NCBI GenBank assembly: GCA_903826405.1
Contig: CAIKEH010000043.1
Location: 38,093 to 102,092 of the forward strand
DNA length: 64,000 bases
Reading direction: 5' to 3'
From: an uncultured bacterium
Lineage (GTDB): Bacteria > Bacteroidota > Bacteroidia > Chitinophagales > Chitinophagaceae
Shown: in pieces, positions 6,836 to 27,421 of the stretch
How the letters are laid out: the number at the start of each line of letters is the position of its first letter
Position numbering within the stretch: position 1 is the first letter of the stretch
Program-made: the position numbers and the translations under genes
The notes under the pieces: generated by a model
Told to the model about the DNA's origin: nothing
What the model saw: the letters and a program-made list of their open reading frames with translations, nothing else
Database searches by the model: none

Positions 6836-6880
6836 CCACCCTCCTCAAAACCACCCTCCAAGAGTCCACCCTCCAAGAGT
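6836..6880. repeat. 15-nt tandem repeat, 3 copies (CCACCCTCCTCAAAA, then CCACCCTCCAAGAGT x2)
   Basis: Read directly; copies at 6836-6850, 6851-6865 and 6866-6880. Confidence 0.9.
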
Positions 6881-6970
6881 CCCGCCAATTTTGAACTAAA
6901 GTTGAAGGAATAAAGATCGCAATCCTGAGAAAAACACGAATTTCGATCACTGTTTACCTTGTTCTGGAGA

Positions 6971-7000
6971 GACCCTCCAAGGGTGGACCCTCCAAGGGTG
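6971..7000. repeat. 15-nt tandem repeat, 2 exact copies (GACCCTCCAAGGGTG), each with a small internal palindrome ACCCT-CCA-AGGGT
   Basis: Read directly; related to the repeat at 6836-6880 (shared core ACCCTCCAAG). Confidence 0.9.
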
Positions 7001-7018
7001 GATTAAAAAAAAGAACAA

Positions 7019-8658: not shown

Positions 8659-10086
8659 TTAATGTAAGGATGTTGCGCCTTTAATGCACGTATTAAAAGT
8701 CGCACAAAATGATGGGGTGGTGACATCATCAAACGGATCATCAGGCAGTCTGATCAAATTACTCCTTCCCTTTTCCACTGCATCAGCCCGCAATAAACTC
8801 AATCCTATACCAGCAACTCCTTGCATGAGTCCTGTTTGAGCCTGCAATAGGCCGGGGCGAGAACGATTTTCAGCCTGAACCCACTGCAGTCCTTTGCCAT
8901 GGCTAGTGCTTTTTTGCAGAAGATCATCCAGCACGCGCTTTGCAAATTGAAGATATATGCTGTCTCTGTATATGCCATACATGTCGAGATAGAAGGCAGC
9001 AATGCCTGCATTACCACAACAGAAACCGACATTGTCCCAATAACCACTGGTCGGCTTTTCCGGTATGCCGGAGTTTATGACCGATCCAGCTGCCTTGCCC
9101 AGCTGTTCTTTCCAGTATGGAAGTCCTGTTTGAGTAAAAAGCTCATGGTAAAGCCTTGCTGTTCCTGCTGGCCCATGGCACCAACCCACATAATAACGAT
9201 CCATGGCCGCAGGATCCGGTTCCGCATGACGGATCATTCCCTGTGACGAAGAAATCCCCGCCAGATATCTAGCCGCTTGATCGGCATCACTGAAAAACAT
9301 TTGGAGTCCGGTCTCCCGGTATAATCTTGCCATGAAGTAAGCGACCCCGGCCGTACCATGGGAAAAATTGGGCATGAAGAAATGATTCGCCGTATCCTTC
9401 ATGAGCATGGGCCATCGTGCAACACCCTTAGAAGACGAAAGCATCCGCTTATTGAGGATGGCCCCCACTTTAGAGGCCTGATCAAGTCCATCATCCATGA
9501 AACCCTCTTTCTTGGCGTATAAGAATGTAAGTCCAATACCTGCATATCCATATATGATATCATTCGCCACCGATGAACTATCGCCATACTTATTCACAAA
9601 TGCCCTGAGGCTATCCAGAACCTGACGGGCGGCCATACCATAGGACTTCTTTCTGAACATCTTGTCCGCCTCATGCAAGACGAATACCAATCCTGAAGCA
9701 CCGGTATAAAGTCCGGTGTTGTTTTCGTCCCAACTGTTGGGCAATAAAGCTATGAGACGGTCAGTCGCTTTTTCTGCGACACGAAGGAACCTGCCCTCTC
9801 CCGTCGCATGATAGAGTTCGAGATAGAATAAAATTATACCTGAGTTGCCTGAATAAAGCTCCGGTGTTGAGGACGTAGAGTCACGGACATCGGGCCAAGA
9901 AATGCCTTTGCTATCAATGCGTTGCAGAGTGGATAACCAACTTTCCGCTTTGAGCGCCGCTTCAAGATAACGACCGGATTGTGCAATGCCTGGATATGAT
10001 GAAAGAAAAATTAACACTGCTAAGCATAATGCTTTGAGCAATGAACAATTAAGATGATGCCGGATCTTCACATCGTTCAATCGCAT
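8659..10086 (-). CDS. Exported lanthionine synthetase C (LanC)-like protein with CCG zinc motif
   Basis: Signal peptide (LKALCLAVLIFLSSYPGIAQS), HGTAGVAYF, YVGWCHGPAG, VGFCCGNAG and QGVAGIGLSLL repeats of the LanC alpha/alpha toroid; C-terminal tail DDVTTPSFCATFNTCIKGATSLH. Confidence 0.85.
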   Translation of the reverse strand: MRLNDVKIRHHLNCSLLKALCLAVLIFLSSYPGIAQSGRYLEAALKAESWLSTLQRIDSKGISWPDVRDSTSSTPELYSGNSGIILFYLELYHATGEGRFLRVAEKATDRLIALLPNSWDENNTGLYTGASGLVFVLHEADKMFRKKSYGMAARQVLDSLRAFVNKYGDSSSVANDIIYGYAGIGLTFLYAKKEGFMDDGLDQASKVGAILNKRMLSSSKGVARWPMLMKDTANHFFMPNFSHGTAGVAYFMARLYRETGLQMFFSDADQAARYLAGISSSQGMIRHAEPDPAAMDRYYVGWCHGPAGTARLYHELFTQTGLPYWKEQLGKAAGSVINSGIPEKPTSGYWDNVGFCCGNAGIAAFYLDMYGIYRDSIYLQFAKRVLDDLLQKSTSHGKGLQWVQAENRSRPGLLQAQTGLMQGVAGIGLSLLRADAVEKGRSNLIRLPDDPFDDVTTPSFCATFNTCIKGATSLH

Positions 10087-24983: not shown

Positions 24984-26459
24984 TTATTGCTTTGTATCCA
25001 TCTCCATAAAAACCCTCGCAAATTCCTTTTTCATGCAATAGAGGAAGATTCGTTTGTCCACAGGGTCCCTCTCTCGACGGATCAGTACTTCATTCCTACC
25101 GGTAAACTTCATGAATTTGGAGTTGATCTGAGTTATGGTTTGGCTCCGATGCACCTTCTGGACATCATTCTTCCTGTTCGACAAACCCAATAACTGATTC
25201 ATCAGGGCGGCTTCCATATGCTCACCTTCTAGGGTTAACCTTGCCAGTTCCAGCATCAGGCTCTTCTCGGTTCCCGTGAGTGATCCATGAAAAATGGAGA
25301 ACCCATTCATTAGGCCTACACTTTGGGAAGACATATCCTGATCAAGAACAAATGGAGACGACGAAAACATCATGGCTTTCCTACCACGTCGACCTACCCA
25401 GGTGAAGAGTGGGATCATGATCAGCATGGAACCGATCACCCAAGGTACGGGTCCCCCCGGAAAAGGCTCAGTTGTTCGAGTCCTATTTTCAGATACCGGA
25501 ATGAACATTCGCCTCTTCCATTTCCAGTTCATTCCGGTATTCTGGAAGCGGGTTGCCTTCACCCAGGCATTTTCATGATCCCCGCAAAAAAAATAAAGGC
25601 TGTCCCCCAGCTTGATGGAATGGGGAAAGCCCTCTGCAGTATCACAGGTAGCAATAACCTTCGCCAATTCATCGGAATAAATCAAATTTGCTCCGGAAAT
25701 GGTATTCGTCACAGGATCCAAAATGACCAGTTCGCTATCCTTTAATATACCCAGGATGTGACCATCTGTCCACGCATATCCCAACTGGGAATTCCTCGTG
25801 TATTCATGTTCATCCATCTCCATTTCTCCCATGAATTTCCAATCCGAATCTTTAAAATCATACCGCTGGACACGGTTTTTCATGGGTAACGTTGACGGTC
25901 GGACTATTTCTTTTGAATAGCTTTCGATTACATAGAATCGGTCCTCTGATCTATCGTAGTAGGTCAAAAGGATATTACCGAGAATGGAATCAGATCCCTG
26001 ATACATAGTCCATTTCCCGTTAATTGAACTGTAAAATGCAAAAAAGCATCTTCCGTGGTTGAAGGTATCGCATCCAAAAGCGAAGAGTGTATCCCTTCGG
26101 AGGAAGGGAATCATTCGGTATTGGTCACCCAGGTCCTGAGTCGTATCGATCCTGATCACTCTATCCAGAGGGTCAAAGGGATCAGGAATGAATACCCGTC
26201 CGCCACGCTCAAGTACCAGAAAATTATTTTTACCCTCTTTGGCCAATATGAGATGCTGGCCTTTAGGAACTTGATCATGAAAGCGATAGGATAATGGAAG
26301 AGGATCGACGGTTGAGGATAGGGTATCCGAAACCAGCAACCTCAACAAAAAGGACTCAGGCTGGGAGAGATGGGTATTATCCTGAGCAACGATGCCTTCA
26401 TTGCCGAAAATGAGAAAAAATAAAATGGGGAATAAATTGTATTTATAAGAACCTATCAT
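24984..26459 (-). CDS. Putative membrane-anchored sensor/regulator: signal peptide, beta-propeller-like exported domain, single TM, C-terminal HTH-like region
   Basis: MIGSYKYNLFPILFFLIFGNEGIVAQ signal peptide; Kelch/propeller-like repeats; TM at WVIGSMLIMIPLFTWVGRR; cytoplasmic tail SLTGTEKSLMLELARL...LGLSNRKNDVQKVHRSQTITQINSKF. ORF can extend to 26609 through the poly-C tract. Confidence 0.6.
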   Translation of the reverse strand: MIGSYKYNLFPILFFLIFGNEGIVAQDNTHLSQPESFLLRLLVSDTLSSTVDPLPLSYRFHDQVPKGQHLILAKEGKNNFLVLERGGRVFIPDPFDPLDRVIRIDTTQDLGDQYRMIPFLRRDTLFAFGCDTFNHGRCFFAFYSSINGKWTMYQGSDSILGNILLTYYDRSEDRFYVIESYSKEIVRPSTLPMKNRVQRYDFKDSDWKFMGEMEMDEHEYTRNSQLGYAWTDGHILGILKDSELVILDPVTNTISGANLIYSDELAKVIATCDTAEGFPHSIKLGDSLYFFCGDHENAWVKATRFQNTGMNWKWKRRMFIPVSENRTRTTEPFPGGPVPWVIGSMLIMIPLFTWVGRRGRKAMMFSSSPFVLDQDMSSQSVGLMNGFSIFHGSLTGTEKSLMLELARLTLEGEHMEAALMNQLLGLSNRKNDVQKVHRSQTITQINSKFMKFTGRNEVLIRRERDPVDKRIFLYCMKKEFARVFMEMDTKQ

Positions 26460-26460
26460 T

Positions 26461-26476
26461 TTGATTTTCAAATCAA
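26461..26476. promoter_or_regulatory. Perfect inverted repeat TTGATTT-TC-AAATCAA directly upstream of the start codon
   Basis: 7-bp arms, 2-nt spacer, 1 nt upstream of ATG at 26459 (minus strand). Confidence 0.5.
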
Positions 26477-26480
26477 TGGA

Positions 26481-26494
26481 GGGGGGGGGGGGGG
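26481..26494. repeat. 14-nt homopolymeric G tract (C on coding strand)
   Basis: Read directly: 'aatggagggggggggggggcacc'; 22-35 nt upstream of ATG at 26459. Confidence 0.95.
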
Positions 26495-26782
26495 CACCAT
26501 AATTCTTCAATTCGTATCGATTTAGCAGTTGGAAAGAGTTCTTTGTGGAGCAATTAAAATGAAAGTTCCCGCCACGGCTGTTCAAAAGTTTATGAATCAA
26601 AATTGGCATAATCCATTTGATCCGGAATCTTTAGGATATACCATTTTAGGGGTAATGCGCGGAGAAAGACAAAAATCGAAATGATGATTGCTTGATGGCT
26701 CACCGAGAGTGACCAACGAATATTTGAATCAAGATCATTCTACATGACAAATTCATGACAAAACTTTGATGAACCTGAAAAC

Positions 26783-27421
26783 TTAATAAAGGATGAATCT
26801 CTTCTTCTCATTAAGGATTTCCCTTAGTCTTGCCTTCAGGCGATCACAATCATGCCGTTTTTCCTTCTTTTGGGTGAAGTAATTAGCCAGGTTCCATATC
26901 TCAAACCAATGGCGTGTCACCATTCCCAAGGCATGGACCATCAGTTCTTTTGAGGTTAGGTCACCCTTTTTTGATCTATTATCAATCATCTCCCGCAAAC
27001 CTTGTTCCGTCACCACAAAATCATTCAACTGGTCGGTCGGAGGGTCTATGGTACATTGGAGAAGCACAGTTTGATATCCGGAGATCTCGAGAACGGCCTT
27101 TTCCAATTGAACCCGATGATCAAGTTCAGGCTCATGGGAGTAGCCTCCATTTTTAGCCCATTTCTCAGGATCAAGTTGTATGTTCTCTGATATATCCTTT
27201 TGTCCGTCCAGTTCGAGCTCTCCATTCACCTGATGGAATTGGGAGTGACAGGCAGCAACAAATTGACCAGCTATGCCATACGCATATAGAACCTTAAAAC
27301 TTTGTTCTTTCTCCTTTGCCGGGTGGAAACCATTCCCTTCTGATTTTTCCATTGGTGCGGCCACTTCAGCGAAGTCAGGTAAGGTGGGCTCTTCGGATGT
27401 TCGTGCAATGGTAGTCTTCAT
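26783..27421 (-). CDS. Hypothetical protein
   Basis: 212-aa ORF, Bacteroidota-like composition, no family recognised. Confidence 0.55.
   Translation of the reverse strand: MKTTIARTSEEPTLPDFAEVAAPMEKSEGNGFHPAKEKEQSFKVLYAYGIAGQFVAACHSQFHQVNGELELDGQKDISENIQLDPEKWAKNGGYSHEPELDHRVQLEKAVLEISGYQTVLLQCTIDPPTDQLNDFVVTEQGLREMIDNRSKKGDLTSKELMVHALGMVTRHWFEIWNLANYFTQKKEKRHDCDRLKARLREILNEKKRFILY

Follow-up and report, generated by a model that had tools for sequence, protein, structure and literature searches.

The window analysed here, a stretch of 64,000 nucleotides, belongs to an uncultured freshwater bacterium of the Chitinophagaceae, the assembly of which amounts to 3,585,023 bases (3.58 Mb) in 55 contigs. 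Its reverse strand carries a gene for a protein of 491 aa (24984..26459), upstream of which the coding strand reads C14-TCCA-TTGATTTGAAAATCAA-A-ATG, with the start codon at 26459-26457. The C14 corresponds to 14 consecutive G's on the forward strand (26481..26494), the longest G/C run of the assembly. Farther upstream, on the same strand as the gene, lies an orphan ORF of 212 aa (26783..27421, reverse strand), for which no match was found in 40 relatives and no family match above cut-off. The homopolymer is genuine and isolated, and the DNA in which it lies, between this orphan ORF and the regulator gene, is non-coding. An earlier note, which read the locus as a candidate phase-variation switch, had placed a 14-nt poly-G/C tract 22-35 nt 5' of the ATG at 26459, and both its sequence and its position are confirmed.

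By prediction, the gene encodes a plausible membrane-anchored one-component regulator, with an exported sensor, a membrane helix and a DNA-binding domain in one protein. Support for this call, which agrees with the sensor/regulator proposed earlier, comes from four predicted parts, namely an export signal, a propeller outside, one membrane pass and a winged helix inside. The N-terminal signal-peptide-like segment (26382..26459, on the reverse strand like the parts that follow) was read by eye, and homologues begin at the same place; the kelch-type beta-propeller region spans about residues 49-321 (25497..26315; Foldseek, Pfam); a predicted helix C-terminal to the propeller in the structure model, at residues 338-360 (25380..25448), is read as transmembrane; and residues 380-491 (24987..25322) would form a winged-helix domain, judging from structure model and fold match. 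The signal peptide and the transmembrane helix were called from sequence and model without a dedicated predictor, and the structure models were built on nine and eight sequences. The protein has no PDB sequence match and no match to a Pfam or NCBIfam family of its own; weak Kelch matches to Pfam appear in 4 of the 13 aligned family members, and a Foldseek comparison of the structure model, of mean pLDDT 71, with the PDB brings up kelch propellers at a best E of 8.5e-7. A separate model of the last 117 residues (pLDDT 90) resembles MarR-type winged helices (Foldseek probability 0.99, E about 0.01); the likeness is one of fold only, and at the sequence level no match to the MarR family was found.

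ToxR/CadC-like regulators are likewise membrane-anchored, one-component proteins, and the predicted protein is similar to them in that a single membrane protein combines a sensor in the periplasm with a winged helix that binds DNA. It differs from them in that a kelch propeller serves as the sensor, in the reversed order of the parts (sensor N-terminal, winged helix C-terminal), and in that neither a Pfam nor an NCBIfam family covers it.

The protein family is present in 33 of the 41 genomes of the genus, with up to seven matches per genome and three copies in the genome studied, and is patchy elsewhere in the Chitinophagaceae and the order. No true orthologue of the gene or of the locus was found among relatives, by protein or by DNA: the matched part of the best homologue shows 29% identity, and paralogues reach at most 29% over their full length. 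A contig scan with the single protein gave no match; in a scan with an alignment of four, the named matches were uncultured Bacteroidota MAGs, several of the named homologue MAGs being labelled Chitinophagaceae or Chitinophagia and some coming from lakes such as Baikal. Against the 41 genomes of the genus the intergenic DNA gave a scrap of 49 bases and nothing informative, and the neighbouring genes tested are mostly absent from relatives. A comparison of homologous loci for conserved tracts, a check named by the earlier note, covered about 30 loci, none with such a tract: no G/C run longer than 7 occurs within 250 nt upstream in the homologues with upstream sequence (0/28), and no run longer than 8 in the homologue loci of another search. 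Because no orthologous locus was found, conservation is judged here on paralogues only, and the absence of the tract from paralogues so distant (at most 29% identity) says little about orthologues.

Within its own genome the tract stands alone. The whole assembly contains seven G/C runs of at least 9 nt (one G14, one G10 and five G9), so that G14 is the sole run longer than 10 nt in 3,585,023 bases. In 1.25 Mb of the genome, runs of 5, 6, 7, 8 and 9 nt number 892, 170, 30, 6 and 4, respectively, a fall of about 5-fold per extra base up to length 8, and a 14-mer therefore lies far outside the expectation from point mutation. Dinucleotide shuffles are uninformative as to this rarity, because the run's own GG steps are kept in them. 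The tract is well beyond the length from which a homopolymer is taken to slip (about 8 or more G/C), and runs of 14 G's are known to slip in other bacteria. A simple-repeat phasome was sought in the 1.25 Mb sampled and none was found; at the locus itself, an Rfam search returned a chance match only.

Other repeats are present in the genome. A dispersed REP-like palindrome, ACCCTCCAAGGGTnnACCCTTGGAGGGT, has 11 copies at 0-1 mismatch (L065-L079), some with C/G-run tails, and two tandem-half versions of it lie 120 nt apart in the window (6851-6882 and 6971-7002). Degenerate tandem octamers resembling GGATTAAT or GATTAACG were also seen (L196:8910-8966 and 9063-9112; L206:14700-14805); in one case two arrays face each other at a distance of about 100 nt. 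That the tract is what remains of a degenerate ACCCTCCAAGGGT palindrome, which is dispersed too, was considered and rejected, the common part being TGGAGGG only.

Between the tract and the start codon lies an inverted repeat, TTGATTT-GA-AAATCAA (26461..26476, no strand assigned), which had been described as a perfect palindrome. It is imperfect: the 16-mer TTGATTTGAAAATCAA consists of 7-bp arms around a central GA, and its reverse complement is TTGATTTTCAAATCAA. Arms of at least 7 bp occur in 8 of 510 upstream regions of the same genome (1.6%). As an RNA hairpin the repeat reaches -2.3 kcal/mol (z = -0.27 against shuffles, i.e. no better than these), too weak for the masking of the RBS that had been proposed for it.

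For the promoter, a model of the -7 box was learned from the 510 upstream regions, taken from L149-L168, L178-L217 and the window, and was seeded with the known Bacteroidota consensus. Start codons in the model are the first ATGs of ORFs of at least 150 codons, some of them wrong, which blurs the distance classes and should not create the two that were obtained: boxes start mainly at -30 to -21 or at -15 to -11 from the ATG, and almost none at -20 to -16. The -7 element of this genome is TAnnTTTGC; that of F. johnsoniae is TAHHTTTG (PMC6847099). A -33 element was not detectable in the 510 regions. The model makes the -7 box of this lineage readable from sequence, which is of use for all genes of genomes of this kind. 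As an observation apart, the class at -15 to -11 implies that many mRNAs of this genome have no leader or almost none, a share that perhaps exceeds the 5.5% reported for F. psychrophilum (PMC9723704).

Against this model, the -7 box that had been suggested beside the tract for its likeness to TAnnTTTG, TTGATTTG (26469..26476, reverse strand), is rejected on sequence, position and score. It has T where A is needed at position 2, and it carries a disfavoured G at a place where F. johnsoniae promoters virtually never have one (PMC6847099); it starts at -17, inside the nearly empty zone; and its PWM score of 2.78 bits ranks at the 26th percentile among genes and at the 45th among shuffled sequences. 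The best other candidates, at -131 and -146, are unremarkable for 400 nt, as judged from shuffles of 50-nt stretches, and sigma-70-type promoters near the tract are no more numerous than in shuffles. Should transcription start far upstream, C14 would lie in the mRNA leader.

Across the Chitinophagaceae, runs of at least 12 G's are sporadic (43 of 299 genomes), and some of those in this survey lie at contig ends and are probably artefacts. The 40 runs examined were selected for not being at a contig start, although two, L258 and L263, are no more than about 80 nt from a contig end; of the 40, 26 are intergenic, versus 22% of random positions in the same loci, and a start codon is found within 60 nt of 4 of these 26, versus a null of 22%. 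An intergenic excess with no enrichment near starts points to relaxed constraint and not to promoter targeting, i.e. long G runs survive where constraint is weak. Two features of the flanks were recorded as well: TA follows 15 of the 40 long tracts (L224-L263), against 8.5% for short G runs, and TTGC precedes 4 of the 40, against 0.5% for short G runs; for some of them a -7 box may lie just 5' of the tract, with the tract at the transcription start. At contig ends or beside them, three relatives (L048, L050 and L051, in G030, G049 and G059) have poly-G stretches of 33-55 nt, which are probably two-colour Illumina artefacts left in public assemblies. A search for homopolymer phase variation in the Chitinophagaceae found nothing in the literature collection used.

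The tract is probably a slippage-expanded non-coding homopolymer of variable length, with a small or graded effect on expression. A G run past about 8-9 bases would slip at replication and, in weakly constrained intergenic DNA, could grow without selection, so that its length probably varies between cells. C14 would leave untouched both the AUG at 26459 and the initiation region AAAATCAAA directly 5' of it, which is A-rich with A at -3, as is favoured for initiation in F. johnsoniae (PMC6847099); changes in length would therefore most likely have little or graded effect and amount to no on/off switch. What favours this reading is that the tract is the only run beyond G10 in the genome, with no simple-repeat phasome in the 1.25 Mb and no tract in homologues, that long G runs across the family are intergenic and not near starts, and that the -7 box test fails.

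A contingency locus, too, would be expected to show a lone G14 ending 22 nt short of the start codon of a regulator gene. On this second account, which we regard as rather unlikely, the tract would work as a rheostat in promoter or leader, its length altering the spacing upstream of a promoter, the leader structure or the binding of an sRNA, with stochastic expression of the regulator as the outcome. The place of the tract (22-35 nt before the ATG) and its length of 14 speak for it, and there are precedents. In Neisseria, opc and porA have homopolymers in their promoters. The nadA gene of the same genus has a repeat tract between NadR operators, the length of which probably sets operator spacing in the meningococcus (PMC2791445), and the expression of tlpB, a sensor gene of H. 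pylori, is set through the sRNA RepG by a G tract in its leader (PMC8295292). The locus is like nadA, opc and porA in having a simple repeat of slip-prone length upstream of one gene and near a possible inverted-repeat operator, and like tlpB in having a homopolymer of similar length 5' of the coding sequence of a membrane sensor. It is unlike the former in that the proposed -7 box fails and no host-contact gene is involved, and unlike tlpB (G12) in that the coding strand carries C14. Moreover, there is no supported -7 box beside the tract and no detectable -33 element in the genome, the distant boxes at -131 and -146 do not exceed the score to be expected in 400 nt, homologues are without the tract, and long G runs in the family are not enriched near starts.

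It is very unlikely that the tract, or its exact length, is an error of assembly or sequencing. Homopolymer length is error-prone in general, and the 33-55 nt poly-G of some relatives has the look of such errors; in this assembly, however, no G/C run of at least 9 nt lies at a contig end, and the tract is internal to a contig of 102 kb, sits between unique sequences and, as a 14-mer, is shorter than usual assembly k-mers.

Least probable is a translational frame switch, in which translation would start at 26609, the CCC codons would be read through and a change of one base would put the regulator out of frame: the frame is indeed open for 57 codons 5' of 26459, with stops in the other two frames, but complete homologues begin at the equivalent of 26459 with a signal peptide, which the extension would bury, and the genome-trained model finds no -7 box before 26609. 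The open frame that spans the tract counts 548 codons in all, and the 50-codon extension from the in-frame ATG (26460..26609, reverse strand) is not conserved in homologues. Its codon score of 0.10 falls among the values seen in the body of the gene itself; among coding windows it ranks at the 5th percentile, and among intergenic ones between the 75th and the 95th. The extension is probably not translated.

To sum up, of the proposed switch the tract, its position and, by prediction, the regulator hold, whereas the perfect palindrome, the -7 box and the RBS hairpin do not, and the frame route is weak. That a slipping C14 in leader or promoter sets the level of the regulator, so that single cells of a free-living freshwater member of the Chitinophagaceae differ in a whole regulon, is improbable on these data. 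In the Bacteroidota, phase variation is dominated by inversion systems, and a regulator that phase-varies through a homopolymer would, if true, be unusual in a non-pathogenic member. With one tract, one gene and one genome, the locus makes a clear and cheap test case; if the tract does switch the regulator, homopolymer phase variation of a transcription regulator would be added to those known in the phylum, and in a free-living species.
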